A DNA stretch of 55,247 nucleotides. Origin: a virus. The position numbers and the translations under genes were made by a program. Under the pieces are notes generated by a model. That model worked only from the letters and a program-made list of their open reading frames with translations. It did no database searches and was not told the DNA's origin. Where the stretch lies: IMG/VR virus record IMGVR_UViG_3300024346_000082, positions 1 through 55,247 of that record, one strand, 5' to 3'. Within the stretch, counting starts at the first letter, position 1. Every line of letters begins with the position of its first letter. Positions 3,821-36,227 of this stretch are shown one piece after another.

Positions 3821-3825
3821 AAAAC

Positions 3826-4107: not shown

Positions 4108-4115
4108 TATTTATA
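4107..4115 (+). promoter_or_regulatory. Putative late promoter element ATATTTATA
   Basis: An exact copy of the nonamer, beginning on the last base of the preceding stop codon and only 6 nt before the ATG at 4122. If it is a -10-type element here, the transcript would be leaderless or start inside the gene, so this copy is the least certain. Confidence 0.35.
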
Positions 4116-4121
4116 ATAAAA

Positions 4122-9918: not shown

Positions 9919-10667
9919 TGGCCCAGACATTAACAGAATGGTTAAACGGAGAAGTTAAAGAATTATCTAAACTTTCTGTAGGTGAGTTATCTAATACTTT
10001 CTTTTTTAGAGACCCAATCCGTCCAACTTATATTGATAATGAACATTTTTACAGCCCAGCTGATGGAACTATTATTTATCAAAAAGTTGTACATCCTGAT
10101 GAAGCAGTTGTAGAAATTAAGGGTATGAATTATACTCTTAAAAATGTAATGGGTAATGATGAATATGATAAACCATCGTTAGTAATTGGCATATTTATGT
10201 CGTTTTACGACGTCCATATCAACAGAATACCCTATGGTGGCGTACTTACGTACGAATCATTAGAACCCATCGAATCTACAAACAAACCCATGCTAGCGGT
10301 TGAGAAGGATATCTTAAATAAGGTAATCAATCCAAATAATATGGAATATTTAAAGTACAATGAACGCATGTTTAACAAAGTGTATGTTCCTTCTCTTGAT
10401 TACACATACTATTTAATACAAATTGCAGATGAAGATGTAAATGTAATTGCTCCGTTTAAAAAGCAATTAGATCTATGTGCCCAGAACGAAAGATTTAGTT
10501 TAATTCGATGGGGGTCACAAGTAGATTTAGTTTTACCTTTAGACGAAAGATTTAATTTCGAGACTGTATTAGATGACACAATGCATGTTAATGCAGGACT
10601 TGATAAATTAGTAAAAATTAATTTCCAAGATAATGACTTCAAACCATCATACCGACGAGGTATTTAG
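9918..10667 (+). CDS. psd: Phosphatidylserine decarboxylase (pyruvoyl enzyme)
   Basis: Predicted to convert phosphatidylserine to phosphatidylethanolamine at the membrane. All family motifs are present in order: FFRDPIR (29-35), SPADG (46-50, catalytic Asp D49), IFMSFYDVHINRIPYGG (92-108, catalytic His H100), and G199-S200 in RWGSQVDLVLP, the site of self-cleavage that creates the pyruvoyl group on S200. The last 50 residues would form the small subunit. The 249 residues fit a short soluble type, since no N-terminal membrane helix is seen. The start ATG overlaps the stop of the pentein gene by one base, and the 3' end overlaps the next ORF by 35 nt. An archaetidylserine-type or other amino-phospholipid substrate is possible. 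Such a gene in a phage structural region is unexpected. Confidence 0.88.
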   Translation: MAQTLTEWLNGEVKELSKLSVGELSNTFFFRDPIRPTYIDNEHFYSPADGTIIYQKVVHPDEAVVEIKGMNYTLKNVMGNDEYDKPSLVIGIFMSFYDVHINRIPYGGVLTYESLEPIESTNKPMLAVEKDILNKVINPNNMEYLKYNERMFNKVYVPSLDYTYYLIQIADEDVNVIAPFKKQLDLCAQNERFSLIRWGSQVDLVLPLDERFNFETVLDDTMHVNAGLDKLVKINFQDNDFKPSYRRGI

Positions 10668-20600: not shown

Positions 20601-23600
20601 ATCTAGTGGAAATAGCTCACTTTCAGGTTCATCAGGATCAACAGGTTCAAATGGATCTTCAGGTGTAGCAGGTACATCAGGTTTAAGTGCTTTAAGTGGT
20701 ACCTCAGGTTCAACAGGTTCTTCAGGAACCTCAGGTTCTGCAGGCGCATCTGGAAATAGTGGATTAAGTGCTACAAGTGGTACTTCAGGATCAACAGGTT
20801 CAAATGGATCTTCAGGTGCAGCAGGTACTTCAGGAGCAAGTGCTTTAAGTGGAACAAGTGGTTCTACAGGTTCTTCAGGAACCTCAGGTTCAGCAGGAAT
20901 AGCTGGAGCTTCAGCATTAAGCAGTACTTCAGGTTCAACGGGTTCATCAGGTTCTTCAGGTTCAAATGGTGTCGCAGGTAATAGCGGATTAAGTAATACA
21001 AGTGGTACAAGTGGTTCAACTGGAACTTCAGGTTCAGCAGGAGCGGCAGGTGCAAGTGCATTAAGTGCTACATCAGGTACTAGTGGTTCATCAGGAACCG
21101 TAGGTTCATCAGGAAATGCAGGCACATCAGGTGCTTCAAATACATCAGGTTCAGCAGGAACTTCAGGTTCAACAGGAACTAGTGGTTCTGCAGGAGCTGC
21201 AGGTAACTCAGGTTTATCAAATACAAGTGGTACTTCAGGTTCAACCGGTACAAATGGTTCAGCGGGTAATGCTGGAAATAGCGGTTTAAGCAACACAAGT
21301 GGAACAAGTGGCTCTACAGGAACTAATGGTTCTAGTGGTAATGCAGGTACATCAGGTATAAGTGCATTAAGTGGTACTAGTGGTTCTACTGGTTCAAACG
21401 GATCAAGTGGAAATGCTGGAAACTCAGGTGCAAGTGCATTAAGTGGAACAAGTGGTTCTACAGGTTCAAATGGTACTTCAGGTTCAGCAGGAATTGCTGG
21501 ATTAAGTGCTTTAAGTGCTACTAGTGGAACAAGTGGCTCATCAGGAACAGTAGGTTCCTCAGGAAATGCAGGAACTAATGGTTTAAGTCAAGCCTCTGGT
21601 ACTTCAGGTTCTTCAGGTTCAGCAGGTACATCAGGTGCTGTTGGAACTAATGGTTTAAGTCAATTATCAGGAACTTCCGGTTCATCAGGAACTAATGGTA
21701 GTACAGGAGCTGCAGGTACTTCAGGTGCTTCAACAACATCAGGAACAGCAGGATCAAGCGGTACTAGTGGTTCAACTGGTACTAATGGTACCTCAGGAAA
21801 TGCTGGAAATAGTGGAGCAAGTGCAACTTCCGGAACAAGCGGTTCAACAGGAACCTCAGGTTCAGCAGGAGCCGCAGGAAACAGTGGTTTAAGCCAAACC
21901 TCAGGAACTAGCGGTTCTACAGGTTCAAATGGTTCAAGTGGTAATGCAGGTAACTCAGGAGCTTCAGCATTAAGCGGAACTTCAGGTTCAACTGGTTCAT
22001 CAGGTTCTTCAGGTTCATCAGGTGCTGCTGGATTAAGTGGTGCAAGTGCTACAAGCGGTACAGCAGGAAGTTCAGGAACCTCAGGTTCAACAGGAACTTC
22101 AGGTTCAGCAGGTAATGCTGGAAACAGTGGTTTAAGCTTTACCTCAGGAACTTCAGGTTCAACTGGTTCAAATGGTTCAAATGGTAACGCTGGAAATAGT
22201 GGAGCAAGTGCTTTAAGCGGTACTTCAGGTTCAACAGGTTCATCAGGAACTAGTGGCTCAGCAGGTGCTGCTGGAAATAGCGGATTAAGTCAAACATCAG
22301 GTACCTCAGGATCTACTGGAACAAACGGTTCTTCAGGTAACGCAGGTAACTCAGGTGCTTCAGCATTAAGTGGTACTAGTGGTTCATCAGGTTCAAATGG
22401 TTCAAATGGAGTATCAGGAAACGCAGGTACTTCAGGTGCAAGTGCAACAAGTGGTACTGCAGGTTCAAGTGGAACTAGTGGTTCAACCGGAACTTCAGGT
22501 TCAGCGGGTGTTGCTGGTAATTCAGGATTAAGTCAAACATCAGGTACATCAGGTTCAACTGGAACAAACGGTTCAACAGGAAATGCTGGTACATCAGGTG
22601 CTAGTGCATTATCAGGAACAAGTGGTTCTACAGGTTCAAGTGGTAGTTCAGGTTCAAACGGAGTAGCTGGTAACTCAGGAGCTTCAGCTTTAAGTGGAAC
22701 ATCAGGTTCATCAGGATCTAATGGTTCAGCAGGTGCAGCAGGAAATAGCGGATTAAGCGCAACAAGTGGAACAAGTGGTTCTACTGGTACTAACGGTTCG
22801 ACAGGTAACGCAGGAAATAGTGGAGCTAGTGCTTTAAGTGGAACAAGTGGTTCATCAGGATCTAATGGTTCAAATGGTGCTACAGGAAATGCAGGTACAA
22901 GTGGAGCAAGTGCTACAAGCGGTACTTCAGGTTCAACAGGAACCAATGGTTCAGCAGGAGTAGCAGGAAACAGTGGATTAAGTCAAACATCAGGTACAGC
23001 AGGTTCATCAGGAACTTCAGGTACTTCAGGAAATAATGGAACTAGTGGTTTAAGCAGCACTTCAGGTTCGGCTGGTTCTTCAGGTTCAAACGGTTCTTCA
23101 GGAGCTGATGGAACTTCAGGTCTTAGTAGAACAAGTGGTACTAGTGGTTCTACTGGTACTAACGGTTCATCAGGTAATGCTGGAAATTCAGGAGCAAGTG
23201 CTTTATCAGGTACTTCAGGTTCAACTGGTTCAAGCGGTACTTCAGGTTCAGCAGGTGTTGCTGGAAATAGTGGTTTAAGCGCAACAAGTGGAACAAGTGG
23301 TTCTACAGGAACTTCAGGTTCATCAGGTGCTGCAGGGTTAAGTGGTGCTAGTGCAACTTCAGGTACTAGTGGTTCTACAGGATCTAATGGTTCATCAGGA
23401 GCTGCCGGTACATCAGGTGCAAGTTCAACCTCAGGTACTGCTGGTTCTTCAGGAACAAGTGGTTCTACAGGAACAAGCGGTTCATCAGGGGCATCAGGAG
23501 TTGCAGGTACTTCAGGTGCAAGTGCAACTTCAGGTACATCAGGTAGTGCAGGTACAGGAGGTTCATCAGGTATTAGTGGTGCATCAGGAATATCCGCTGT

Positions 23601-26600
23601 TAGTGGCACATCAGGGTCATCAGGTTCAAATGGTTCTTCAGGTAATACTGGATCAAATGGAGCAAGTGCATTATCAGGAACAAGTGGTTCAACAGGTTCT
23701 AACGGATCAAGTGGAAACACAGGTAACTCAGGTGCTTCAGCACTTTCAGGAACAAGTGGTTCTACTGGTTCTTCAGGAACTAATGGTTCTGCAGGTGTAG
23801 CCGGTGTTTCAGCATTAAGTGCTACATCAGGTACAACAGGTTCATCAGGAACAAATGGTTCAACAGGAGTAGCAGGTGCTTCAGCATTAAGCGCTACTTC
23901 AGGAACTTCAGGTTCAACAGGAACAAATGGTTCTTCAGGTAACGCAGGTAATTCAGGAGCTAGTGCATTATCCGGAACTTCAGGTTCATCAGGATCAACG
24001 GGTTCAAATGGAGCAGCAGGTGCTAGTGGCACTTCAAACATAAGTGGCACTTCAGGAACTACAGGATCTAACGGATCAAACGGTAACGCAGGTGTCGCTG
24101 GAAATAGCGGTTTAAGTGCAACTTCTGGAACTACAGGTTCCTCAGGAACTACAGGTTCTGCAGGTATAGCAGGTAATAGTGGAGCAAGTGCATTAAGTGG
24201 AACTTCAGGTTCATCAGGATCAGCAGGTTCAAATGGAGCTGCTGGTGCAAACGGAACTTCAAATATAAGCGGTACTTCAGGTTCAACAGGAACAAATGGT
24301 TCTTCAGGTAACGCAGGTAATTCAGGGGCAAGCGCATTAAGTGGTACTTCAGGATCAACAGGTTCTTCAGGAACTAACGGTTCAGCAGGTGTTACTGGAA
24401 ATTCAGGTGCAAGTGCTGCAAGTGGAACATCAGGTTCATCAGGATCTAATGGTTCCAATGGTGCTACAGGAGCTAATGGCACCTCAGGTGCAAGTGCTAC
24501 TTCAGGAACTTCAGGTTCAACAGGAACAAATGGTTCAAGTGGTAACGCAGGAAATAGTGGAGCAAGTGCTTTAAGCGGTACCTCAGGATCAACTGGTTCA
24601 AATGGTTCAAATGGTGCTGCAGGTGCTAATGGAACTTCAAATATAAGTGGAACTAGCGGAACTACTGGTTCCGCAGGTTCATCAGGTAATGCTGGAGCCG
24701 CTGGAAACTCAGGTTTAAGCTCAACAAGTGGTACTTCAGGTTCAACGGGTACTAACGGTTCATCAGGAGCAGCAGGCAACTCAGGTTTAAGTGCTATAAG
24801 TGGTACAAGTGGAACTACAGGTTCAAATGGTTCAAATGGAGCCGCAGGTGCTAATGGAACTTCAAACGTAAGTGGTACAAGTGGTTCAACTGGTTCAGCA
24901 GGTTCAAATGGAAATGCTGGAATAGCAGGAAATAGTGGATTAAGTGCAACTTCAGGTACTAGTGGTTCTACAGGAACTAACGGTTCATCAGGAAATGCTG
25001 GAAACAGTGGAGCTTCTGCATTAAGTGGAACTTCAGGTACAACTGGTTCTTCAGGAACTAACGGTTCAGCAGGTGTAGCAGGTAATAGCGGATTAAGTGC
25101 TTTATCAGGTACCTCAGGTACATCAGGATCTAACGGTTCAAACGGGGCTGCAGGTAACTCAGGTGCATCAGCTTTAAGCGGCACTTCAGGTTCAACTGGT
25201 TCTTCAGGAACAAATGGTTCGAATGGAATATCAGGTAATAGTGGAGCAAGTGCTGCAAGTGGCACTTCAGGTTCAAGTGGTTCAAACGGTTCAAATGGAG
25301 CTACAGGAGCTAATGGCACCTCAGGTGCAAGTGCTACTTCAGGAACTTCAGGTTCAACAGGAACAAATGGTTCAACGGGTGCTGCTGGAAACAGTGGTTT
25401 AAGTCAAACTTCAGGAACAAGTGGTTCAACTGGTTCGAATGGTACTTCAGGTGCAATAGGTACTTCAGGTGCAAGTCAAACATCAGGAACTGCAGGAAGT
25501 TCAGGTACTTCAGGTTCAACAGGTACTAATGGTACATCAGGTGCTGCTGGTAACTCAGGATTAAGCCAAACATCAGGAACTAGCGGTTCTACAGGAACTA
25601 ATGGTTCAAATGGTAACGCAGGAAATAGTGGAGCTTCTGCATTAAGTGGTACTTCAGGTTCTACAGGTTCAAATGGTAGTAATGGTGCTGCTGGAAACAG
25701 TGGTACTTCAAATATAAGCGGAACTTCAGGTTCTACAGGATCAACAGGTTCAAATGGAGCTGCTGGTGCTAGTGGAACTTCAAATGTAAGTGGCACAAGT
25801 GGCACTACAGGATCTAATGGATCAAATGGTAATGCAGGTGTTGCTGGAAATAGCGGATTAAGTGCTACCTCAGGTACATCAGGTTCAACTGGTTCATCAG
25901 GTACAACGGGAGCGGCAGCAACATCAGGTCAAAGTACACAATCAGCAGTAAGTGGTTCAAGCGGTTCTTCAGGAACTAGCGGTTCTGCTGGTGCCGCAGG
26001 AAATAATGGAGCTAGCGCAGCAAGTGGTACTTCAGGTTCTTCAGGTACAACGGGTTCAAACGGAGCAGCAGGTGCTAATGGTACTTCAAACATAAGTGGA
26101 ACTTCAGGTACTACAGGTTCTAATGGTTCATCCGGAAACGCAGGTGCTGCAGGTAATAGTGGTTTAAGCGCTACTTCAGGAACAAGTGGTTCTACCGGAA
26201 CTAATGGTTCAGCAGGTAATGCAGGTAATAGCGGTGCTTCCTCAGTAAGCGGAACATCAGGAACAACTGGTTCAAATGGTAGTTCTGGAGGAGCTGCAGT
26301 AGCAGGTGTTAGCACAATTAGCGCAACATCCGGTTCTTCAGGTTCAAACGGTACAAACGGTGCTGCTGGAAATAGTGGTACATCAAATATAAGTGGTACT
26401 AGTGGAACTACAGGTTCAAATGGTACTTCAGGAAACGCAGGAGCTGCAGGTAATAGCGGATTAAGTGCCACCTCAGGAACTTCAGGTTCAACAGGAACAA
26501 ATGGTTCAAGTGGTAACGCAGGAAATAGTGGAGCAAGTGCTGTAAGTGGTACTAGTGGAACATCAGGTTCAAATGGTTCAAACGGAGCAGCAGGTGCTAA

Positions 26601-28635
26601 TGGTACTTCAAACGTAAGTGGTACAAGTGGAACTACAGGTTCAAACGGTACTTCAGGAAACGCAGGTGCTGCAGGAAATAGCGGATTAAGTGCCACTTCA
26701 GGTACATCAGGTTCAACAGGTTCAAATGGATCTAATGGTGCTGCAGGTAACAGTGGAAACAGTGCATTATCCGGTACATCAGGTTCAACAGGTACTTCAG
26801 GATCCTCAGGTAATAATGGTGCCGCCGGAAATAGTGGAAACAGCGCAGCATCAGGTACAACTGGTTCCTCAGGAACAAATGGTAGTAATGGTGCTACTGG
26901 TAACTCAGGTAACTCAGGTAACTCAGGAGTATCAGGAACAACAGGTTCAAACGGAACTTCAGGTAATAATGGCGCTTCAGGCAACTCGGGTAACTCAGGT
27001 ACTAATGGAACCTCAGGTTCAAATGGTAACTCGGGTAACTCAGGAAACTCAGGTACTAACGGAACAACAGGTTCAAACGGAACTTCAGGTAATAATGGTA
27101 ATGCAGGAAACAGTGGTTTAAGTGGATTATCAGGTACAACAGGTTCAAACGGATCTTCAGGTAATAATGGAGGCGCAGGTGCTTCAGGAGTAAGTGCAGC
27201 ATCCGGTACTTCAGGTTCAACAGGTTCAAACGGATCTTCAGGTAACAACGGTGCAGCGGGAAACAGTGGAAACAGCGCATTATCAGGTACAACTGGTTCA
27301 TCAGGAACAAATGGTAGTAATGGTGTTGCAGGTAACAGTGGAAATAGCGCATTATCAGGAACAACAGGTTCAAACGGAACTTCAGGCAACAATGGTAATA
27401 ACGGTGCCTCAGGAAACTCAGGAAATTCAGGAACTAATGGAACCACAGGTTCAAATGGTACTTCAGGAGCAGCAGGGAATTCAGGAAACTCAGGATTATC
27501 AGGTACAAACGGAACCACAGGTTCAAACGGTAATAATGGTGCTGCAGGAAACTCAGGAAATAGTGGTTTAAGTGGAACTTCAGGTTCAAACGGTACTTCA
27601 GGAGCAGCAGGAAATTCAGGAAACTCAGGATTATCAGGTACAAACGGAACCTCAGGTTCAAATGGTAATAACGGAGGAGCAGGAGCAAGTGGAATAAGTG
27701 GTGCTTCAGGAACTTCAGGTTCAAATGGTTCAAGTGGTAACAATGGAAACGCAGGTGCTTCAGGTAACTCAGGACTATCAGGAACAAATGGAACTACAGG
27801 TTCAAACGGTACTTCAGGAGCTGCAGGTAACTCAGGAAACTCAGGATTATCAGGAACAAATGGTACAAGTGGTTCAGCTGGTAATAATGGAGGTGCAGGT
27901 CCTAGTGGAGTAAGTGGTGCTTCAGGAACTTCAGGTTCAAACGGATCTTCAGGTAATAATGGTAACGCAGGTGCTTCAGGAGTAAGTGCAGTATCAGGAA
28001 CTACTGGAACTTCAGGTTCAAATGGAAACTCAGGTAACAATGGTGCTAGTGGAGCTAATGGTACTTCAGGAGTAAATGGTTCAAATGGTACTACTGGAGC
28101 TTCGGGTACAAGTGGTCAATCAATCAATGGTACATCAGGTATTAGTGGTGGTGTATTTACTAACCAACCTGATTACTTAGTACGCACAACAAGTACAACA
28201 ACAGTACAAAGTGTATCGTTCTTATATGCTGATATGACAAACAGCAGATTAGGTGTTGGTACAACTTCTCCATCATATCCTCTACACGTAAGCGGTAACG
28301 TAAGTGGTGTATCTATATACGCATCAAATGATATTCAAGCATTCTCTGATAGAAGAGTAAAAGGTGATATACAAATAATAGAAGATGCTATCAATAAAAT
28401 TAACCAAATAAATGGTGTAACATTTACAAGATTAGATGATAAAGAAAATTATAAAGGTAGACATGCAGGTGTAATTGCACAAGAAGTAGAATTAATTCTC
28501 CCAGAAGTAGTTAATACAGATGCTATAACAGGAATGAAATCAGTAGCATATGGTAACTTAAATGCTTTATTAATTGAAGCAATTAAAGAATTAAGTAAAA
28601 AAGTCAAAGATTTAGAAGATAAATTAAATAAATAA
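14650..28635 (+). CDS. Giant collagen-like fibre protein with S74 intramolecular chaperone, 4,661 aa
   Basis: Predicted virion fibre or adhesin. N-terminal domain 1-121 is beta-rich (VRFLDQVPVGVYNVD; FPFSGSAVITGSLVISGS) and probably attaches to the virion or trimerises. Residues 122-4499 are Gly-X-Y triplets almost without Pro, Lys, Arg or aromatic residues; Gly, Ser, Thr, Asn and Ala dominate. From residue 299 on, one triplet in roughly every seven to ten lacks Gly (ALS, ATS, QTS, NIS and similar), giving a super-repeat of about 24-30 residues. The C-terminus (4500-4661) has a short beta domain, then an S74 endosialidase-type chaperone with S4566-D4567 and K4571 in SDRRVK, the self-cleavage site of that family, and a terminal coiled coil (KELSKKVKDLEDKLNK). 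Cleavage would release about 95 residues after trimer folding. There are no frameshifts or stops over 13,986 nt. It covers a quarter of the window. Confidence 0.93.
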   Translation: MAQVRFLDQVPVGVYNVDPNNTGGGTIDIYQNGTLVSSSVPFLNFSGSVALTTFDTTGVTVYVSASSVGFPFSGSAVITGSLVISGSSQPLILQTLPVQAGPYVVTYNPTTGLVGYVNSSSGTSGVNGSNGTAGVAGTSGTSGTSGTNGLSGSTGSSGTSGANGTNGTNGTNGNSGSTGSSGTSGVNGTNGTSGTNGNSGSTGSSGTSGANGTNGTNGTNGLSGSTGFSGTSGDNGTNGTNGTNGLSGSTGSSGTSGANGINGTSGTNGLSGSTGSSGTSGINGTNGTSGVAGNSGLSQTSGTSGTSGTNGTSGVAGTNGNSGTTGTSGTSGNNATSGNAGTSGSSNTTGTSGTSGNNATSGNAGSSGASATSGSTGTSGSSGANGNAGSSALSGTSGTSGSNGTSGVIGTNGLSQEAGTSGTSGSNGTSGVAGASGLSQTSGTAGSSGTTGSSGNAGNNGSSALSGTSGTSGSNGTSGAAGNSGLSNTSGTSGSTGTNGSAGNAGNSGGSSTSGTSGSTGTSGSTGNAGSGGASALSSTSGSTGSSGSSGSSGAAGNSGLSALSGTSGSTGSNGTSGNIGNNGSSALSGTSGSTGSSGSNGVDGNSGLSATSGTSGSTGTNGSSGNAGVSGASSTAGSSGSTGTNGSSGNAGNSGASALSGTSGSTGSSGSSGSNGAAGNSGLSNISGTSGSTGSNGSSGLNGSQGTSAESGTSGSTGSSGTSGSSGAAGVSALSATSGTTGSSGTVGSAGVAGSSALSATSGTSGSNGSSGITGTSGLSAESGTSGSSGSNGSSGVIGTNGLSTLSGTSGSTGSSGTSGSTGVAGGSGLSNTSGTTGSSGTSGSAGIAGVSALSSTSGSTGSNGTSGIEGTSGLSALSGTSGSTGSNGTSGNIGSNGTSALSSTSGSTGSNGSSGLAGSQGTSALSGTSGSAGSNGSTGIAGTNGLSAESGTSGSTGSSGTSGSAGFAGQSGLSSTSGTSGSTGTNGSTGNAGTSGASNTAGSSGSTGSNGSSGNAGNSGASALSGTSGSTGSNGTSGSAGIAGNSGLSATAGTSGSTGSNGSTGVAGTSGDSNTSGTAGSTGTSGSSGNAGNSGASALSGTSGSTGSNGTNGAAGNSGISNISGTSGSTGSNGSSGIAGSSGASELSGTSGSSGTNGTSGNAGNNGASALSGTSGSTGSSGSNGSAGAAGNSGLSATAGTSGSTGSNGSSGIAGSSGASALSGTSGSTGTNGSSGAAGSNGTSALSGTSGSTGSSGTSGSAGAAGNSGLSATSGTSGSTGTNGSTGNAGSNGASASSGTSGSTGTNGSTGAAGTSGASQTSGTAGSSGNSGTSGSTGTSGSAGAAGDSGLSQTSGTSGSSGSVGTSGNIGTSGLSRTSGTSGSTGTNGTSGDGDTGTSGLSRSSGSSGSTGTNGSSGNAGNSGASALSGTSGSTGSSGSNGSAGAAGNSGLSALSGTSGSSGTNGSTGNAGTNGASQLSGTSGSSGTNGSTGAAGTSGASTTSGTAGSSGTSGSTGTNGTSGNAGNSGSSALSGTSGSSGSNGSNGAAGNNGASALSGTSGSTGSSGTSGSVGAAGNSGASALSGTSGSSGSNGSNGATGIAGTSGASSTSGTAGSSGTSGSTGTNGTSGASGNSGLSTTSGTSGSSGTNGSTGNAGTSGASNASGSSGSTGSNGSSGNAGNNGASNISGTSGSSGSAGTTGAAGTNGLSQLSGTSGSSGTNGSTGIAGTSGASVTSGTAGSSGTSGSTGTNGSSGIAGNSGASATSGTSGSTGSNGSSGAVGSSGVSALSGTSGSTGSNGTSGNTGTSGSSALSGTSGSTGSSGTSGSAGAAGNSGLSSTSGTTGSSGTSGSAGAAGNSGLSQTSGTSGSTGSNGSSGVAGTSGASALSGTSGSTGTNGSSGIAGSQGASALSGTSGSTGSSGTSGSAGVAGASAISATSGTTGSSGTTGSAGASGQSGSSSTSGTSGSTGTTGSSGIAGSSGNSSLSGSSGSTGSNGSSGVAGTSGLSALSGTSGSTGSSGTSGSAGASGNSGLSATSGTSGSTGSNGSSGAAGTSGASALSGTSGSTGSSGTSGSAGIAGASALSSTSGSTGSSGSSGSNGVAGNSGLSNTSGTSGSTGTSGSAGAAGASALSATSGTSGSSGTVGSSGNAGTSGASNTSGSAGTSGSTGTSGSAGAAGNSGLSNTSGTSGSTGTNGSAGNAGNSGLSNTSGTSGSTGTNGSSGNAGTSGISALSGTSGSTGSNGSSGNAGNSGASALSGTSGSTGSNGTSGSAGIAGLSALSATSGTSGSSGTVGSSGNAGTNGLSQASGTSGSSGSAGTSGAVGTNGLSQLSGTSGSSGTNGSTGAAGTSGASTTSGTAGSSGTSGSTGTNGTSGNAGNSGASATSGTSGSTGTSGSAGAAGNSGLSQTSGTSGSTGSNGSSGNAGNSGASALSGTSGSTGSSGSSGSSGAAGLSGASATSGTAGSSGTSGSTGTSGSAGNAGNSGLSFTSGTSGSTGSNGSNGNAGNSGASALSGTSGSTGSSGTSGSAGAAGNSGLSQTSGTSGSTGTNGSSGNAGNSGASALSGTSGSSGSNGSNGVSGNAGTSGASATSGTAGSSGTSGSTGTSGSAGVAGNSGLSQTSGTSGSTGTNGSTGNAGTSGASALSGTSGSTGSSGSSGSNGVAGNSGASALSGTSGSSGSNGSAGAAGNSGLSATSGTSGSTGTNGSTGNAGNSGASALSGTSGSSGSNGSNGATGNAGTSGASATSGTSGSTGTNGSAGVAGNSGLSQTSGTAGSSGTSGTSGNNGTSGLSSTSGSAGSSGSNGSSGADGTSGLSRTSGTSGSTGTNGSSGNAGNSGASALSGTSGSTGSSGTSGSAGVAGNSGLSATSGTSGSTGTSGSSGAAGLSGASATSGTSGSTGSNGSSGAAGTSGASSTSGTAGSSGTSGSTGTSGSSGASGVAGTSGASATSGTSGSAGTGGSSGISGASGISAVSGTSGSSGSNGSSGNTGSNGASALSGTSGSTGSNGSSGNTGNSGASALSGTSGSTGSSGTNGSAGVAGVSALSATSGTTGSSGTNGSTGVAGASALSATSGTSGSTGTNGSSGNAGNSGASALSGTSGSSGSTGSNGAAGASGTSNISGTSGTTGSNGSNGNAGVAGNSGLSATSGTTGSSGTTGSAGIAGNSGASALSGTSGSSGSAGSNGAAGANGTSNISGTSGSTGTNGSSGNAGNSGASALSGTSGSTGSSGTNGSAGVTGNSGASAASGTSGSSGSNGSNGATGANGTSGASATSGTSGSTGTNGSSGNAGNSGASALSGTSGSTGSNGSNGAAGANGTSNISGTSGTTGSAGSSGNAGAAGNSGLSSTSGTSGSTGTNGSSGAAGNSGLSAISGTSGTTGSNGSNGAAGANGTSNVSGTSGSTGSAGSNGNAGIAGNSGLSATSGTSGSTGTNGSSGNAGNSGASALSGTSGTTGSSGTNGSAGVAGNSGLSALSGTSGTSGSNGSNGAAGNSGASALSGTSGSTGSSGTNGSNGISGNSGASAASGTSGSSGSNGSNGATGANGTSGASATSGTSGSTGTNGSTGAAGNSGLSQTSGTSGSTGSNGTSGAIGTSGASQTSGTAGSSGTSGSTGTNGTSGAAGNSGLSQTSGTSGSTGTNGSNGNAGNSGASALSGTSGSTGSNGSNGAAGNSGTSNISGTSGSTGSTGSNGAAGASGTSNVSGTSGTTGSNGSNGNAGVAGNSGLSATSGTSGSTGSSGTTGAAATSGQSTQSAVSGSSGSSGTSGSAGAAGNNGASAASGTSGSSGTTGSNGAAGANGTSNISGTSGTTGSNGSSGNAGAAGNSGLSATSGTSGSTGTNGSAGNAGNSGASSVSGTSGTTGSNGSSGGAAVAGVSTISATSGSSGSNGTNGAAGNSGTSNISGTSGTTGSNGTSGNAGAAGNSGLSATSGTSGSTGTNGSSGNAGNSGASAVSGTSGTSGSNGSNGAAGANGTSNVSGTSGTTGSNGTSGNAGAAGNSGLSATSGTSGSTGSNGSNGAAGNSGNSALSGTSGSTGTSGSSGNNGAAGNSGNSAASGTTGSSGTNGSNGATGNSGNSGNSGVSGTTGSNGTSGNNGASGNSGNSGTNGTSGSNGNSGNSGNSGTNGTTGSNGTSGNNGNAGNSGLSGLSGTTGSNGSSGNNGGAGASGVSAASGTSGSTGSNGSSGNNGAAGNSGNSALSGTTGSSGTNGSNGVAGNSGNSALSGTTGSNGTSGNNGNNGASGNSGNSGTNGTTGSNGTSGAAGNSGNSGLSGTNGTTGSNGNNGAAGNSGNSGLSGTSGSNGTSGAAGNSGNSGLSGTNGTSGSNGNNGGAGASGISGASGTSGSNGSSGNNGNAGASGNSGLSGTNGTTGSNGTSGAAGNSGNSGLSGTNGTSGSAGNNGGAGPSGVSGASGTSGSNGSSGNNGNAGASGVSAVSGTTGTSGSNGNSGNNGASGANGTSGVNGSNGTTGASGTSGQSINGTSGISGGVFTNQPDYLVRTTSTTTVQSVSFLYADMTNSRLGVGTTSPSYPLHVSGNVSGVSIYASNDIQAFSDRRVKGDIQIIEDAINKINQINGVTFTRLDDKENYKGRHAGVIAQEVELILPEVVNTDAITGMKSVAYGNLNALLIEAIKELSKKVKDLEDKLNK
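15013..28146 (+). repeat. 13.1-kb collagen-like coding repeat array
   Basis: About 4,378 codons of G-X-Y, with the DNA built from recurring hexamers and nonamers (tcaggt, ggttcaaca, ggaaatagtgga). Three zones: uninterrupted triplets with TNG and TSG runs (15013-15543); interrupted super-repeats with a Gly-less triplet closing each unit (15544 to about 26730); and an Asn-rich zone with NNG and NSG runs (about 26730-28146). Copies differ by many synonymous changes, so the array is old rather than a recent slippage expansion. Such DNA is prone to recombination and assembly error, so its exact length should be treated with care. Confidence 0.95.
28345..28635 (+). other. S74 intramolecular chaperone domain of the giant fibre
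   Basis: Codes for residues 4566-4661. It begins at the predicted scissile Ser-Asp with the Lys dyad partner five residues on, followed by the family segments INGVTFTRLDD, HAGVIAQEVE, LPEVV, and VAYGNLNALLIEAIKEL. In the known family the trimeric chaperone folds the fibre and then cuts itself off. Confidence 0.9.
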
Positions 28636-28637
28636 AA

Positions 28638-29336
28638 ATGGCAGTTCCAACTTCAAGTATAAATTTTAGTGATATATGGAGTGAAGCTAATGGTGCTTAT
28701 TCTACAGGTATCCTTAGCTTAAATACTATGAGTTTTTTTTCATATTTTACAGGTCTAAATGGTTCTGGTAATCAACCTGATAATAATTGGGGACAAGGTG
28801 AAGGATCAGGAGCAAATAGAATATATCTTACTACTGCAAAAACTACAAATATAAAAGTAAGTGATTTTTCAGGATTAAATTATTTTTATGATAGTAATTA
28901 TGATAGATTAATAACTGTTAATGGTGCCTATAGTGGTCCTTCTCCCATAATGCCCCCAGACCCACCAGATTGTTATGATTTTAATATTAGATTAACCCTT
29001 TACGATAGTTCATTAACATATATATATGCTGCTGGAGGATTCTCCCTAGCTCCATTTTTCCCTACTTTTGGAGCTGACATACAGCAAGATACTATTACCC
29101 CACTAATAAACACTTATTATTGGGTTTTAGACATCCAAACATCTCCTTCATACCCTGGTCTTGCAGGAGCTGTAACTGCAAATTTTTTTATTAATGGTAG
29201 TCCATTTTTTACAAGTGCAACGGTAAATAATGGAGGTAATACTTATGACTCAACAACTTATGGCACTGCAACAATAGCTCTTAATTCACCATTAGCAAAT
29301 AAAACAGGTTCACTTTGGGATGTTACTATGAGCTAA
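28638..29336 (+). CDS. Fibre-associated hypothetical protein, 232 aa
   Basis: Function not recognised. The N-terminus (SSINFSDIWSEANGAYSTG) resembles the short motif that opens many tail-fibre and minor tail proteins. The remainder is aromatic, Gly/Ser/Thr-rich and likely all beta, with a Pro-rich patch (MPPDPPDCYD) near residue 110. It lies 2 nt after the giant fibre stop and is presumably co-translated with it, so it may cap or bind the fibre. No catalytic motif is seen. Confidence 0.65.
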   Translation: MAVPTSSINFSDIWSEANGAYSTGILSLNTMSFFSYFTGLNGSGNQPDNNWGQGEGSGANRIYLTTAKTTNIKVSDFSGLNYFYDSNYDRLITVNGAYSGPSPIMPPDPPDCYDFNIRLTLYDSSLTYIYAAGGFSLAPFFPTFGADIQQDTITPLINTYYWVLDIQTSPSYPGLAGAVTANFFINGSPFFTSATVNNGGNTYDSTTYGTATIALNSPLANKTGSLWDVTMS

Positions 29337-29362
29337 GTTTGGAACTTTAAATTTTCTTTAGT

Positions 29363-29371
29363 ATATTTATT
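29363..29371 (+). promoter_or_regulatory. Putative late promoter element (variant ATATTTATT)
   Basis: Differs from the recurrent nonamer only in the last base. It sits in the 49-nt gap before the glycosyltransferase genes, 14 nt before the ATG, so these genes would be expressed late, with the fibre. Confidence 0.45.
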
Positions 29372-29385
29372 GGAAATAAGTTATT

Positions 29386-32043
29386 ATGAAAAAATTGTTA
29401 TATGTTGCACCGCATCTATCAACTGGCGGACTCCCTCAATATTTAACTAAAAAAATTGAATTACTTAAAGATGAATTTGAAATTTATCTTGTAGAATGGG
29501 TTGATTGTACTGGAGGTATTCTTGTAGTTACAAAAAATAAAATCCAAAACCTTATTGATCCGGATAAATTCTTTACATTAGAAGAAAATAAAATAGAACT
29601 GATTGATATTATTAATCAAGTCCAACCTGATATTATCCATTTGGAAGAAATTCCTGAGTTTTTTATGGATGAAGAAGTAGCCAAACAAATTTATAAACAA
29701 GATAGAAGTTATATCATTATAGAAACGTCACATGATTCTTCTTATAACACAGAAGATAAACGTTTCTTTCCTGATAAATTCATGTTTGTATCTCAATGGC
29801 AAATAAATCAATATAAAGATATTAACGTTCCTAGCGTATTAGTCGAATATCCTATTGAATATATAGAACGTCCTGACCGTGAAGAGGCATTGCGTAATCT
29901 ACAATTAGATCCCGCTAAAAAACACGTTTTACATGTTGGATTATATACATCTCGTAAAAATCAAGCTGAATTTTTTGAATATGCTAAACAATTTCCTGAT
30001 GTGGAATTTCATAGTTTAGGAAACCGAGCAGATAATTTTAAATGGTATTGGGAACCATTAGCTCAAAACACTCCCCCAAATTTAACATGGTGGAACGAAC
30101 GTACAGACGTTGATAAATTCTATCAGGCAATGGATTTATTCTTGTTTACCTCTCGTGGACATGATAATGATAAAGAAACAATGCCATTAGTTATTCGTGA
30201 GGCCATTTCAAATCAAATCCCTACATTAATATATAATCTCCCAGTTTATTTAAATTATTTTGATAAATTTAAAACTATTAATTATTTAAAGTTTGATGAT
30301 TTTAAAATTAATTGTAATAAAATTGCTGAAAAATTAGGTGTTAAAGAATCTAATTTAAATGAAGAAATTTTTATATTATCAACTTTCCCAATAAGTGATA
30401 CTATAGTTGAAACTACATTAAAAACAATTGATTCAATTCATGCTAGAGGAACAAAAGTATTAGTTACATCACATATTCCTGTTCCATTTGCTATAGAAGC
30501 AAAAGCAGATTATGTTGTTGTTGATAACAATAATATTTTAACTAAACATTCATATTATTGTAATTATTGGGCTGATCTTCCTGATCATAAAGTCCATATT
30601 AATTTAAGAGGAAATGATAATGATTTATATCATGGCCCTAGTGTTTATTCAAATTATGTAAACGGTGCTGCTTTAGCTAAAAATTTAGGATATAAAAAAT
30701 TATTCTTTATCAATTTTGATTACACTATTCAAAATACAAAACATATTAATGAAGTATCTGAAATATTAGATAATAAAAAAGCATACTTTGGTAAATATAG
30801 AGCATCAGAAGGTGATGCTTTACATACTTATTTTTATGCTTCCAACTCAGATTTCTTTTTAGATCATGTTCACCAAGTATTTAATACTGAAGATTATGAA
30901 CATTTACGTTTCCAATTAGGAAGTGAAAGTAATGGTTTAGAAAATATGTGGCATCATATATTTAAACGAAGTTCAGATCAAATTTATTTTGAAGATATTG
31001 AAATATTTAATCAAAAAAGTATAGAAACTTTTGATCATTCTGATTTTTCCCAAGTAGAATATTACACTGTACTATCTACTAATATTCCTAACACATTTGC
31101 TCCTTATATTAGAATTTCTAATAGTAAAGAATCAAGATTAATTCAAATTAAAGTACTTGATAAGGATAAAAACGAAGTATTCTTTGATGAATTAAACATA
31201 GAGGGTAAAACAGATTATTATAAAATCCTTCCATACGAAGAAGGAATGGAGGTAGTATTTACTATAAGTAATTACCATAAAATCCTAAAAATCACCACAA
31301 TCCAGGTAACAAATTTAGAATTTAATGGAAGTATTGAAGTAAAAAATCATTTACCTAAAATTAAATTAATGCATTTAGTTACTGAACCTGAAACTAATGA
31401 AAAAGAAATCCGTTCAATAGATAATATTAAAGATTTCTGTAAAAAAACAGGTATATTATACGAACAACGAGTTAATGAAATATGGAAAGGGCTTCCACCT
31501 AAAGAAACATGTGCACGTCCACACGAAATTCAAGAAGTACCTGGTTATTATAAATTAGCTCCTGGACATTATGGTTGTTATTTAGCTCATAAAAATGCTA
31601 TATGCGCTGAGGATAATACAGACTATGATTTTGTATTAATCGTAGAAGGCGATGTTATAGTAGATAGTGATTATCAAGAGTTATATGAATCTTTAATTCG
31701 ATTTAATAAATTATCATATCAAACAGATATGGATGTTATTGGATTTGGAAATCCATGGCAAGATAGAAATTTAAATGGACCTAAAATTGATGACATTTAT
31801 ACAAATGTAACCCCTTTTATCCCAGCACAATCATATTTAATTAATAATATTAAAACTAAAAAAATTAAAACATTATTAGAAACTATGACTTGGGATGCTA
31901 TTGATTTATGGATGTGTAATGTTGCTAAATTAAAAATAGGAACAGCCGAAAAAATTTATACAAAACATCTCCCAGGTTATAGTATTATAGAACAAACTGT
32001 TAAAGATGCTTCAACCGATAACCCTTTAATATTTACAACATAA
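29386..32043 (+). CDS. Multidomain glycosyltransferase (GT-B domain + GT25-like domain)
   Basis: Predicted to transfer two or more sugars. Residues 1-310 form a GT-B/GT4-like unit (VAPHLSTGGLPQYLTKKIELL near the start; HVLHVGLYTSRKNQAEFF, then KETMPLVIREAISNQIPTL). Residues about 320-470 are a second, unassigned alpha/beta domain (ILSTFPISDTIVETTLKTI; HSYYCNYWADLPDHKV). Residues about 545-655 look like a beta-sandwich linker. Residues 659-880 resemble GT25, the family containing LPS galactosyltransferases and procollagen galactosyltransferases: HYGCYLAHKNAI, then LIVEGDVIVD with E754-G-D756 where GT25 usually has E-D-D. It shares a TAATG junction with the next gene. Position beside a collagen-like fibre suggests the fibre as substrate; host surface polysaccharide is the alternative. 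Confidence 0.75.
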   Translation: MKKLLYVAPHLSTGGLPQYLTKKIELLKDEFEIYLVEWVDCTGGILVVTKNKIQNLIDPDKFFTLEENKIELIDIINQVQPDIIHLEEIPEFFMDEEVAKQIYKQDRSYIIIETSHDSSYNTEDKRFFPDKFMFVSQWQINQYKDINVPSVLVEYPIEYIERPDREEALRNLQLDPAKKHVLHVGLYTSRKNQAEFFEYAKQFPDVEFHSLGNRADNFKWYWEPLAQNTPPNLTWWNERTDVDKFYQAMDLFLFTSRGHDNDKETMPLVIREAISNQIPTLIYNLPVYLNYFDKFKTINYLKFDDFKINCNKIAEKLGVKESNLNEEIFILSTFPISDTIVETTLKTIDSIHARGTKVLVTSHIPVPFAIEAKADYVVVDNNNILTKHSYYCNYWADLPDHKVHINLRGNDNDLYHGPSVYSNYVNGAALAKNLGYKKLFFINFDYTIQNTKHINEVSEILDNKKAYFGKYRASEGDALHTYFYASNSDFFLDHVHQVFNTEDYEHLRFQLGSESNGLENMWHHIFKRSSDQIYFEDIEIFNQKSIETFDHSDFSQVEYYTVLSTNIPNTFAPYIRISNSKESRLIQIKVLDKDKNEVFFDELNIEGKTDYYKILPYEEGMEVVFTISNYHKILKITTIQVTNLEFNGSIEVKNHLPKIKLMHLVTEPETNEKEIRSIDNIKDFCKKTGILYEQRVNEIWKGLPPKETCARPHEIQEVPGYYKLAPGHYGCYLAHKNAICAEDNTDYDFVLIVEGDVIVDSDYQELYESLIRFNKLSYQTDMDVIGFGNPWQDRNLNGPKIDDIYTNVTPFIPAQSYLINNIKTKKIKTLLETMTWDAIDLWMCNVAKLKIGTAEKIYTKHLPGYSIIEQTVKDASTDNPLIFTT

Positions 32044-32993
32044 TGAAAATCTGTCAAGTCGATCCGGGTTGTGGTATTCCAATCCCACCTCCAGCATGGG
32101 GAGCTATTGAAAAAATTGTTTGGGAATTTACCCAAAATCTAAAAGAATTAGGACATGAAGTAGATATTAAAATGTCAGGTCAAATTAATCCTGGAGAATA
32201 TGATATAGTTCATTGTCACGTAGCTAATCTAGCAATTCAATTAGCAGAAAGAGGTATACCATATGTTTACCAATTACACGACCATCATGCTTTCTTTTAT
32301 GGTAAGGATTCTCATGTTTATAAAGAAAACCTCCAAGCAATTGAAGGTTCACTTATATCTTTAATGCCTGCTAGATTTTTAGTTGACTACTTTGAAAGTG
32401 ATAAATGTGTTTATTTCTCTCATGGTGTTAACACAAATGAATTATATCCAAAACAAAAAAATACTCCTGCTAATCCAAAACTATTAATGATAGCTAATAA
32501 TGGTTTAGGTGGAGATCCTACATTTGATAGAAAAGGTTTTGCTTTAGGGTTAGGGTTAGCAATGCTTAATAATTTAGAAATTACAATAGCAGGCCCTTCA
32601 GATAATAAAAGATTTTTTAATGGACACCTGTGGATGTTAGGTTACCCTAAACTAAACTTGGTTTTTGATACTCCTAATAGTAAATTATTGGAATTATATC
32701 ACACCCACGATATTTTTATACACCCAACTATTTTAGAAGCTGGACATCCTAATTTAACAATGATTGAAGCAGCAGCTGCTGGTTTACCTCTTATTGCTAA
32801 CTGGGAAATTGAAACAGATTTTCACGGTGCTTGGAGATCTCCACGTGATGTATTTGAAATGGATAGAGGTTTAAAAGATATATTAAGTAATTGGTCATTA
32901 TATAGAGATAAATTAGTAGTAACATCTCAAGAATTATCATGGTTTAACCGTTCTAAAGAATTAATTAAAGTATATGAAAGAAATATTGATTAA
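32043..32993 (+). CDS. Glycosyltransferase family 4-like
   Basis: GT-B-fold glycosyltransferase of 316 residues. The N-terminal domain has PPPAWGAIEKIVWEFTQNL (16-34), the usual Gly/Ala-rich acceptor-side loop, and VHCHVANLAIQL. The C-terminal domain carries E232-A-G-H-P-N-L-T-M-I-E242 followed by AAAAGLPLIA, a variant of the E-x7-E donor-binding motif with nine rather than seven residues between the glutamates. The nucleotide sugar is unknown. It starts on the last base of the preceding glycosyltransferase stop and its end overlaps the following gene by 20 nt, so the three act as one unit. The shortness (GT4 is often 350-400) suggests a trimmed phage form. Confidence 0.78.
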   Translation: MKICQVDPGCGIPIPPPAWGAIEKIVWEFTQNLKELGHEVDIKMSGQINPGEYDIVHCHVANLAIQLAERGIPYVYQLHDHHAFFYGKDSHVYKENLQAIEGSLISLMPARFLVDYFESDKCVYFSHGVNTNELYPKQKNTPANPKLLMIANNGLGGDPTFDRKGFALGLGLAMLNNLEITIAGPSDNKRFFNGHLWMLGYPKLNLVFDTPNSKLLELYHTHDIFIHPTILEAGHPNLTMIEAAAAGLPLIANWEIETDFHGAWRSPRDVFEMDRGLKDILSNWSLYRDKLVVTSQELSWFNRSKELIKVYERNID

Positions 32994-34173
32994 GGAGTAT
33001 AATAACACCCCCCAATTAAACATTCCAAATAAGGAAAATAATAATACATTTAAGTTTAATTTTTTAAAAGGAGCATTTTTAGAAATTATAGGTTCTAACT
33101 CTAAAACATATGTAGCTAAATTTTTTAATAAATCTAAAGATGAATTAGTATATGAAGCAGAGATTACTAACAATATGTGGACCAAACCAGGTATTGAATA
33201 TTTCATTAATTGGAGAATTGAAGTTTACGATAAAGAAAATGATGAATTAGTATTCGAACATGATTTTAATGCTAGAGAAAAAAGAGTTTATATTCATTTA
33301 GAGTCCTCAGCATTAGGTGATACCTTAGCTTGGTTTCCGTTTATAGATGAATTTAGAAAAGTTCATAAATGTCATGTAATATGTTCAACATTTCACAATG
33401 AATGGTTTGAAAAAGAATACCCTGAATTAGAATTTGTTACCCCAGGTACTGAAGTACATGATTTATATGCTATGTACAATATTGGTTGGTTTTATAATGA
33501 AGATAGAACTATAAATAATTTAAAAATCCCAATTGATTTTAAACAACATCCATTAGGAGAAACATCAACATCTGTATTAGGATTATCTTATGTAGAAACT
33601 AAACCAAAAATTAATGTTCCTAATAAGGGAAGACAAATTCATGGTAAATATGTTGTTATTGCACCTCACGCTTCAGCACATGCTAAATATTGGAATTACC
33701 CAGGCGGATGGCAAACAGTAATTGATTATTTAAATGCAAAAGGATATAAAGTAGTAATAATCACCCAAGAAAAATTAGGTGATAAATGGCATGATTCAAA
33801 ATTAGGAGGTAAATTAAAAGGAGTAATTAATAAAACAGGTAATTATCCGATTGAAGATAGAATGGTAGATATTAAACACGCTGATGCTTTTATAGGTGTT
33901 GGTAGTGGGTTATCTTGGTTAGCATGGTCTATAGGTACACCTGTAATACTAATCTCAGGATTTAGTTTACCATATAGTGAGTTTCTTGATTGTGAACGTA
34001 TATTTAACTATGATACTAATGTATGTAATGGATGTTTTAATAGAGAATGGTTAAATCCGGGTGATTGGGAATGGTGTCCTGATCATAAAGATACACCACG
34101 TCAATTTGAGTGTACAAAAACTATTAAACCTTCTCAAATAATTGAATCTCTTAACAAACTTCTTAATATTTAA
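32974..34173 (+). CDS. TibC/BAHT-like protein O-heptosyltransferase (GT9-type)
   Basis: Resembles bacterial autotransporter heptosyltransferases, which add heptose to Ser residues of repetitive surface adhesins. Residues 1-105 form the beta-rich N-terminal domain (ending NWRIEVYDKENDELVFEHDF). The core starts with VYIHLESSALGDTLAWFPF (109-127), then CSTFHNEWFEKEYPEL and a stretch on LYAMYNIGWFY. The donor side has APHASAHAKYWNYPGGW and GVGSGLSWLAW. Near the end four cysteines, C351, C354, C368 and C380, form a C-x2-C-x13-C-x11-C pattern like the metal finger of that family. Cytoplasmic enzyme; the sugar donor (ADP-heptose in the family) would have to come from the host. The N-terminal ATG lies inside the previous gene. 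LPS heptosyltransferase activity is the alternative. Confidence 0.75.
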   Translation: MKEILIKEYNNTPQLNIPNKENNNTFKFNFLKGAFLEIIGSNSKTYVAKFFNKSKDELVYEAEITNNMWTKPGIEYFINWRIEVYDKENDELVFEHDFNAREKRVYIHLESSALGDTLAWFPFIDEFRKVHKCHVICSTFHNEWFEKEYPELEFVTPGTEVHDLYAMYNIGWFYNEDRTINNLKIPIDFKQHPLGETSTSVLGLSYVETKPKINVPNKGRQIHGKYVVIAPHASAHAKYWNYPGGWQTVIDYLNAKGYKVVIITQEKLGDKWHDSKLGGKLKGVINKTGNYPIEDRMVDIKHADAFIGVGSGLSWLAWSIGTPVILISGFSLPYSEFLDCERIFNYDTNVCNGCFNREWLNPGDWEWCPDHKDTPRQFECTKTIKPSQIIESLNKLLNI

Positions 34174-34502: not shown

Positions 34503-36227
34503 ATGGCCGAATCATTAATATCCCCAGGAGTCCTCGCATCCGAAAATGATAACTCATTTGTTTCCCAAGGACCCATCAGAAATAGTGCTGCTATTCTTGG
34601 ACCTACAGTAATAGGACCTGTTGAAGTTCCAACTATTGTTACTTCATACAGTGATTATACTAATAAATTTGGTTCTACTTTCCTTAGCGCTAGTAACGTT
34701 TACTCATTTTTTACCTCAATTACAGCATATAATTATTTTGCTAACGGTGGTGAAACTTTATTAGTAACTAGAGTAGCTAGTGGTTCATACACATCTGCAA
34801 CATCATCCTTTATTTCAGGTAGTACAGCAGGAGCTATTGCAAGTGGTAGTGCCTTTACTTTAACTACTATCTCTCAAGGTACTATTATGAATAGTACTAG
34901 TTCTTTAGATGTTAGTGGATCATTAGCATCAGGTTCAAACTATAACCTTAGATGGCAAATTGCAAATTCAAATACAGCCTCAGGCACATTTGATTTATTT
35001 ATTAGACGAGGTAATGACAACACCAATAATGTTGTTATATTAGAAAACTGGACTAATTTATCATTAGATCCAACTCAACCAAACTTTATTTCTAAAGTAA
35101 TTGGGGATCAATACGATGTATATAACACATCTTCTCTTTCAGTACAAACTGTAGGTAATTACAAACGTAATTCAAAATATGTTTATGTATCTAGTATTGA
35201 TTCAGATTTCTTAATGCCTAACTATTTTGACAATAGTGGATATCCAACTACAGCATATGCTGCCTTTATGCCTGCTAGTAATAGTGGATCATTTGGTAGT
35301 GCTGTTGGTACATTAAAAGCAGGAGCTAATTTTTATGATACAATCAATACTTCTAATACTCAAGGATTAATAGCTCTTAATTATACAAATTCAATTAATT
35401 TAATGTCTAACCAAGATGCTTATAAATTTAATGTATTAGTAACTCCTGGTTTATATAATTCCGATACTAACTACGGTGCTCAAATGACTACTATTATCAA
35501 TAATACTCAAAATAGAGGTGATAATATTTTTATAGCAGATTTAGTACCTTATGGTTCAACCGTATCCTCAGCAACTACACAAGCAGGAAATAGAAATACT
35601 TCATATGCAGCTTCATATTGGCCTTGGGTTCAAATCGTTGAACCAGATTCAGGACAATTAGTATGGATCCCAGCATCAACAGTAATTCCTGGTGTATTTG
35701 CTTACAATGATACAGTATCTGAGCCATGGTTTGCACCAGCAGGTATTAATAGAGGTGGTTTAAATCTTGTAGTTAAAGCAGAAACTAAATTAACTCAAAC
35801 CCAACGCGATAATCTTTATATAGGAGCTGTAAACCCAATAGCTACATTCCCTGCAAACGGAGTAGTAGTATATGGTCAAAAAACATTACAGAAAAAAGCA
35901 TCAGCTTTAGATCGTGTAAATGTTCGTCGTTTGTTAATTGCTCTTAAAAATTTCATTTCAGAAGTAGCTCAAAACTTAGTATTCGAACAAAATACAATCG
36001 CTACAAGAAATTCATTTTTAGCATCCGTAAACCCATACTTGGAAACAGTACAACAAAAACAAGGTTTGTATGCTTTTAAAGTAATTATGGACGATAGTAA
36101 CAACCCAGCAGATGTAATCGATAGAAACCAAATGGTAGGTCAAATTTATATTCAACCAACCAAAACGGCCGAATTTATTTACTTGGATTTCAACATCTTA
36201 CCAACAGGTGCAACATTCCCTGGATAA
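34503..36227 (+). CDS. 18: Tail sheath protein (T4 gp18-like)
   Basis: Contractile sheath subunit. The N-terminus LISPGVLASENDNSFVSQGP is the classic opening of myovirus sheath proteins, followed by GPTVIGPVEVPTIVTSYSDY. Residues about 90-330 form the variable outer domain. The C-terminal part (NGVVVYGQKTLQKKASALDR; VNVRRLLIALKNFISEVAQ; QMVGQIYIQPTKTAEFIYLD) is the conserved inner domain that grips the tube. It has 574 residues versus 659 in T4. The leader is aaaaaacaactcattaac, no Shine-Dalgarno. The tube gene follows behind its own promoter element. Confidence 0.93.
   Translation: MAESLISPGVLASENDNSFVSQGPIRNSAAILGPTVIGPVEVPTIVTSYSDYTNKFGSTFLSASNVYSFFTSITAYNYFANGGETLLVTRVASGSYTSATSSFISGSTAGAIASGSAFTLTTISQGTIMNSTSSLDVSGSLASGSNYNLRWQIANSNTASGTFDLFIRRGNDNTNNVVILENWTNLSLDPTQPNFISKVIGDQYDVYNTSSLSVQTVGNYKRNSKYVYVSSIDSDFLMPNYFDNSGYPTTAYAAFMPASNSGSFGSAVGTLKAGANFYDTINTSNTQGLIALNYTNSINLMSNQDAYKFNVLVTPGLYNSDTNYGAQMTTIINNTQNRGDNIFIADLVPYGSTVSSATTQAGNRNTSYAASYWPWVQIVEPDSGQLVWIPASTVIPGVFAYNDTVSEPWFAPAGINRGGLNLVVKAETKLTQTQRDNLYIGAVNPIATFPANGVVVYGQKTLQKKASALDRVNVRRLLIALKNFISEVAQNLVFEQNTIATRNSFLASVNPYLETVQQKQGLYAFKVIMDDSNNPADVIDRNQMVGQIYIQPTKTAEFIYLDFNILPTGATFPG

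Follow-up and report, generated by a model that had tools for sequence, protein, structure and literature searches.

The locus described here raises the question of what three glycosyltransferase genes are doing behind the gene of a giant collagen-like fibre in a bacteriophage. The DNA analysed (IMG/VR record IMGVR_UViG_3300024346_000082, positions 1 to 55,247, hereafter the window) belongs to a T4-like myovirus, of which this 55.2-kb fragment carries the genes for portal (gp20), protease (gp21), capsid (gp23), sheath and tube. On the + strand the fibre gene is followed by a 232-aa open reading frame (ORF), by overlapping genes for glycosyltransferases of 885 aa (GT885), 316 aa (GT316) and 399 aa (a BAHT, i.e. 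a TibC/AAH-type protein O-heptosyltransferase), and then by the sheath gene (Table 1). The overlaps amount to 1 nt (GT885/GT316) and 20 nt (GT316/BAHT), and the order array, GT885, GT316, BAHT is kept in dozens of contigs. Because of the matches to curated models and the recurrence in dozens of independent contigs, a chance origin of the cassette can be excluded. Judging from comparative evidence throughout, it seems probable that the cassette O-glycosylates Ser and Thr residues of the collagen-like fibre, which would make it a late fibre-maturation cassette. The core identities and the association of BAHT with the array are robust and the acceptor is likely, while the sugar and its role are conjecture.

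The presumed substrate is unusual in composition. Ser and Thr account for 43.8% of the Gly-X-Y array, which holds a single Pro and no Lys. The X position is occupied by Ser (33%), Thr (30%), Asn (14%) and Ala (12%), the Y position by Ser (53%), Asn (17%), Ala (16%) and Thr (13%), and Gly substitutions occur chiefly at a spacing of 24 or 27 residues (ALS, ATS, QTS and similar). The collagen model PF01391 gives 111 matches above its cut-off in one open frame of the fibre, some of them only together with in-frame neighbours, and any triple helix of this array would have to form with almost no proline. Hydroxylysine-type glycosylation was considered and rejected, as the earlier note on this DNA had done, since the array is without Lys.

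The key enzyme is the 399-aa protein, for which the assignment as a TibC/BAHT-like O-heptosyltransferase is upheld by several lines of evidence. TIGR04414 matches it with 333.4 bits (cut-off 200) over residues 17-395, i.e. along the whole protein, as it also matches all 10 aligned phage members, and the TibC structure (4rap) matches with an E-value of 6e-60. D116 and K238 align with the catalytic Asp (D110) and the donor-site Lys (K230) of TibC and are invariant in the 10 phage members, as are the four cysteines of the iron finger; the roles of the TibC residues and its iron-finger cysteines (Cys339/342/358/370) have been described (PMC4358343). By homology, the enzyme would transfer heptose from ADP-heptose and would assemble into a dodecamer. 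TIGR04415, the canonical strand-loop-strand acceptor repeat of autotransporters, was not found in 10 records, the window included, and the 399-aa enzyme is best taken as a BAHT homologue with a different presumed acceptor. Since the canonical repeat is absent from these ten records, the Gly-X-Y chain may well be the acceptor, with BAHT starting the glycan and the other two enzymes extending it.

BAHT relatives are encoded in 241 viral stretches. A scan of a genome collection for a bacterial donor found a single relative, which is again a phage contig (binned with Winogradskyella), and therefore no bacterial donor was identified. Sister lineages also have a divergent BAHT domain, in proteins of ~760-790 aa encoded immediately ahead of the sheath (L144:915-3188, L230:62-2371, L313:4510-6891); in L313 a proline-free array of 1,251 aa lies just upstream.

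Whether cassette and array belong together was examined in loci anchored on the tail sheath (three different sheath queries), supplemented with BAHT and S74 sets, so that the pairing itself was not selected on. Near-identical contigs were collapsed into 77 clusters, and a 10-kb flank was scored for presence of the cassette and of a Gly-X-Y array of any kind (10 Gly in 12 triplets, thresholds being our own choice); three contigs were read beyond the flank, and the final counts include these readings. Both elements were present in 36 clusters and neither in 37, with BAHT only in 1 and an array only in 3 (Fisher 2.9e-17), i.e. an array accompanies 36/37 BAHT+ loci versus 3/40 BAHT- loci. The sheath-only sample of 70 clusters gives the same picture (29 both, 37 neither, 1 BAHT only, 3 array only; p 3e-15). 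When the two were compared as discrete traits along the sheath tree, the correlation had a likelihood ratio (LR) of 35.7 and a p of 3e-7, which is approximate because the test is a simple home-made Pagel-type likelihood, and all differing independent pairs on supported branches were concordant (5/5, before corrected scoring). The co-occurrence of glycosyltransferases with collagen-like fibres, on which the earlier note had staked its proposal beforehand, thus holds with 4 discordant clusters, also when the tree is taken into account.

Details of scoring matter here. A stricter criterion of 20 triplets missed proline-containing arrays, leaving L035, L038, L044 and L050 array-free or nearly so. 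One locus first scored as lacking both elements (L129) carries both, array and cassette lying ~17 kb from the sheath, and an apparent BAHT+ locus without array (L150) has its array at the contig edge. No TIGR04414 gene was found in the whole records of 33 BAHT- clusters, a result that is provisional because most of these records are contig fragments. Array-less BAHT- relatives can have Ser/Thr-rich fibres as well (L123, L152), and therefore it is the array, not Ser/Thr content, that tracks the cassette.

The pairing also recurs in other layouts. In Mel-JY01, an isolated Microcystis phage, a 1,234-aa FkbM-BAHT fusion is preceded at a short distance by an array ORF (52% Ser+Thr, 2.5% Pro). The 735-kb megaphage LR756501 has a GT885-like gene and a fusion of GT316 with BAHT, close to a Gly-X-Y array that runs on the opposite strand; a search with a megaphage BAHT matched only 3 contigs. 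Neither BAHT nor array occurs in the Flavobacterium phages 'immuto', which by sheath (53%) are the closest isolates. In the Mel-JY01 record (L231, PP395634.1, 1-3049) the collagen-like fibre ORF is for the most part unannotated, with two hypothetical CDSs overlying it on the opposite strand; its 3' end alone is annotated, as a hypothetical protein, and the frame appears continuous across the record ends.

The strongest extra argument for fibre maturation comes from the proline arrays (at least 3% Pro) and the prolyl-hydroxylase-like gene found with them. Within the sheath-lineage clusters, all proline-free arrays (30/30) are accompanied by BAHT, and a PF13640 2-oxoglutarate (2OG)-Fe(II) oxygenase gene is present with 7/9 proline-containing versus 0/30 proline-free arrays (Fisher 2e-6; tree test 7e-7). 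It therefore seems that the enzymes present depend on which residues the array provides. A search starting from the oxygenase gave 22 distinct loci with close homologues, many of them not in the sheath lineage; a proline-containing array lies within ~10 kb in 17 of the 22, compared to 2/33 cassette-free control loci. The link between this prolyl-4-hydroxylase (P4H)-like enzyme and arrays is limited to close homologues, because the distant 2OG oxygenases of the isolated cyano- and pelagiphages S-SM1, S-RSM4 and HTVC008M have no array within 12 kb. Between fibre and P4H gene, the proline-array cassettes encode a GT2-methyltransferase fusion and a DUF6445 protein (L044:2571-3806 and 3812-4447; L240-L243).

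The two partners of BAHT are less sharply defined. The reading of GT885 as a multidomain GT-B/GT25-like enzyme stands for the GT4 part, which PF00534 matches above its cut-off (35.9 versus 26.4 bits, residues 164-296), while the C-terminal domain can be called GT25-like only, a sub-threshold, fold-level label. PF01755 (GT25) reaches 19.5 bits there against a cut-off of 24, although 11/11 members of the GT885 family match it sub-threshold (E 0.1 or better, best E 3e-5). In the structure check that had been proposed, the AlphaFold model of GT885 found human COLGALT1 (E 4e-8) and LH3 among its top PDB fold matches, a likeness that, given the low TM-scores of the multidomain model, amounts to fold-level support only. 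A sequence-profile search of the PDB with the GT25-like domain gave nothing meaningful. GT316 can likewise be called GT4-like only: models of the GT4 type, several of them, concur with PHROGs of phage glycosyltransferases, but below cut-off (24.1 versus 26.4 bits for Pfam).

How the cassette would work can be sketched by homology and analogy. BAHTs work in the cytoplasm, on proteins before export, and because phage fibres are also made in the cytoplasm no transport is needed. BAHT would put the first sugar on Ser/Thr of the fibre in the host cytoplasm (heptose from host ADP-heptose, if it resembles its homologues), after which the GT4-like and GT4/GT25-like enzymes may extend or diversify the glycan or add sites. 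On a proline-free array the sugar coat probably replaces (hydroxy)proline, and may stiffen, solubilise and protect from proteases a rod with almost no imino acids; that it stabilises or shields such a rod is suggested by analogy with SgtA/BclA3 and with Riftia collagen. Sister phages with proline arrays would have added the prolyl-hydroxylase-like enzyme to the same cassette. Acceptor, linkage, donor sugar, order of the enzymes and physical role are all inferred. A wider proposal, of which the chances appear evenly balanced, is that collagen finishing is modular: O-glycosylation by BAHT would stabilise proline-free Ser/Thr fibres, P4H would be added for proline-containing ones, the collagen helix would be a second type of BAHT acceptor, and some viral prolyl-hydroxylase 'auxiliary' genes would in fact encode fibre-maturation enzymes.

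Glycosyltransferases near fibres, e.g. in the fibre regions of pelagimyophages (PMC7029224), are commonly read as modifiers of the host surface, and LPS enzymes are found among the GT4 and GT25 families. The cassette could thus modify O-antigen or LPS against superinfection and merely sit in a variable fibre region. This is improbable, however, for an enzyme set whose key member comes from a protein-specific family, which tracks the collagen-like type of fibre rather than fibres generally, and which lies among late structural genes. Equally improbable is that the sugar goes to another virion protein (the 232-aa neighbour, the N-terminal fibre domain, the S74 tip or the capsid) instead of the array. 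BAHTs do prefer beta-structured acceptors (PMC4358343), the N-terminal fibre domain and the 232-aa protein are not collagen-like, and glycosylation of virion proteins exists in mycobacteriophages, according to work cited in PMC12619734; but the 232-aa gene and the S74 tip are lacking from many cassette-bearing loci, and cassette-free relatives have the capsid genes too. The array alone co-varies with the cassette.

Glycosylation of the array nevertheless has to be set against several observations that weigh on the other side. The acceptor that known BAHTs recognise is a beta-helix rather than a collagen helix (PMC4358343). Nothing clear was found for ADP-heptose synthesis genes in the long relatives, with only sub-threshold rfaE-like matches, and the donor is therefore either host-supplied or another sugar. 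The GT885 model has modest confidence (pTM 0.45; TM 0.13-0.16 versus COLGALT1/LH3), and all that one BAHT+ locus (L084) shows of an array is a Gly-X-Y stretch that is short and sub-threshold. Moreover, adjacency moves fibre and cassette as a block, and thus linkage explains part of the co-occurrence. Pure linkage, in which functionally unrelated genes travel together in fibre-module exchange, would fit the adjoining genes, the commonness of such exchange and the small number of independent contrasts on the tree (5-7). It is nonetheless the least probable of the three alternatives: the pairing turns up again in other arrangements and with other fusions (Mel-JY01, LR756501, L129), which makes simple hitch-hiking less weighty, and the enzyme set shifts with array chemistry, P4H occurring only with proline arrays. 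The proposal that the cassette decorates the Ser/Thr-rich Gly-X-Y array, already put forward in the earlier note, is thus supported by the identity of BAHT and by the joint gain and loss of cassette and array.

Known systems offer partial parallels. The autotransporter O-heptosyltransferases of the BAHT family (TibC, AAH; TIGR04414) share with the 399-aa enzyme the full-length homology, the catalytic and donor-binding residues and the iron finger, as well as the siting of the gene beside a long repetitive surface protein; here, in contrast, there is no autotransporter or strand-loop-strand repeat, the neighbour is a collagen-like phage fibre, and two extra glycosyltransferases are present. A precedent for the arrangement is SgtA/BclA3 of C. 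difficile, where a glycosyltransferase gene adjoins that of a collagen-like exosporium protein and Thr/Ser O-glycosylation in the collagen region has been shown (PMC7157674), although SgtA is an O-GlcNAc transferase acting on spores and the phage has BAHT with GT4/GT25-like partners. Mimivirus likewise modifies its own collagen, by glycosylation of hydroxylysine (PMC4691112), and the fold of GT885 resembles COLGALT1/LH3; mimivirus L230 and animal COLGALT1/LH3 (GT25, PLOD) act on hydroxylysine, whereas the present cassette is without a lysyl hydroxylase. Mycobacteriophage glycosyltransferases have also been proposed to decorate the virion, on other substrates (capsid, tail tube), and no collagen-like fibre is reported in the source consulted (PMC12619734). 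Finally, the PBCV-1-type prolyl 4-hydroxylase is a viral enzyme of the 2OG-Fe(II) kind that suits proline in collagen-like chains, similar to the gene in the sister proline-array loci; the window, with its proline-free array, has no such gene. In the open-access literature (subscription journals lay outside the search) no description was found of a BAHT or P4H cassette tied to phage collagen.

The region around the cassette calls for some further remarks. Glycosylation genes beside the collagen-like, S74-capped fibre are confirmed as three + strand genes (29386-34173), but the span 28638-34173, given earlier as the cassette, is too wide, as its first 0.7 kb is the 232-aa gene. The product of the latter has no family match in Pfam, PHROG or NCBIfam, and its fold model is of low confidence, with a beta-rich C-terminal half and no significant fold match. 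The 8-mer TATTTATA is a candidate late promoter, having 13 copies on the + strand, 10 of which lie within 45 nt upstream of gene starts (mostly of structural genes) in windows that make up 3% of the sequence. Upstream of GT885 there is only the variant TATTTATT, and GT316 and BAHT are without any copy, a pattern consistent with a single transcript. Gene starts have A-rich leaders upstream and no obvious Shine-Dalgarno sequence, which, taken with the fact that the nearest isolate is a Flavobacterium phage, hints at a host among the Bacteroidota. Among the head genes lies a phosphatidylserine decarboxylase-like gene (PF02666, 85.9 bits; 9918-10667).

Table 1. Features of the fibre and glycosylation region (window positions unless a locus is named)
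Feature	Position	Strand	Basis or remark
Giant fibre gene, 4,661 aa	14650..28635	+	N-terminal domain, Gly-X-Y array, S74 tip; presumed substrate
Collagen-like Gly-X-Y array	14986..28140	+	residues 116-4497, ~4,380 aa; Ser/Thr/Asn/Ala-rich
S74 intramolecular chaperone domain, fibre C-terminus	28345..28512	+	PF13884, 62.7 bits
232-aa protein, function not assigned	28638..29336	+	not a glycosyltransferase; after S74-tipped fibres in a subset of relatives
GT885, multidomain glycosyltransferase	29386..32043	+	N-terminal GT4/GT-B, middle GT-A-like, beta-sandwich, C-terminal GT25-like GT-A
GT25-like segment of GT885	31552..31872	+	conserved E-G-D motif
GT316, GT4-like glycosyltransferase	32043..32993	+	sub-threshold GT4-type models, phage glycosyltransferase PHROGs
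BAHT, 399 aa (TibC/AAH-type)	32974..34173	+	TIGR04414, TibC structure, alignment
Iron-finger motif C-x2-C-x13-C-x11-C	34024..34113	+	C351, C354, C368, C380
Tail sheath gene	34503..36227	+	phrog_23, 237 bits; anchor of the comparative tests, outside the cassette
TATTTATA copies upstream of gene starts	67, 2005, 4108, 11389, 14624, 34185, 34470, 36245, 36826, 37867	+	candidate late promoter
Prolyl-4-hydroxylase-like 2OG-Fe(II) oxygenase	L044:4453-5040, L050:5821-6411, loci L240-L276		beside proline arrays, in several phage lineages

A large family of phage glycosyltransferases is usually filed as host-surface modifiers; the finding gives them a substrate that can be tested, and the reach of the TibC/AAH family seems to extend further than autotransporters. 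The use that viruses make of prolyl 4-hydroxylase has been termed cryptic (PMC9301287), and the position of the gene beside proline-containing phage collagens offers a possible answer for the close homologues. If the proposed glycosylation is true, the fibre would be a natural proline-less collagen with sugars as a possible stabiliser, comparable to Riftia collagen, in which galactosylated threonine seems to add thermal stability (PMC10141479), and such phages would be a source of long glycosylated collagen-like materials. That fibre and enzymes are kept or lost together suggests that viruses finish their own collagen chemically, as animals do, by a different chemistry.

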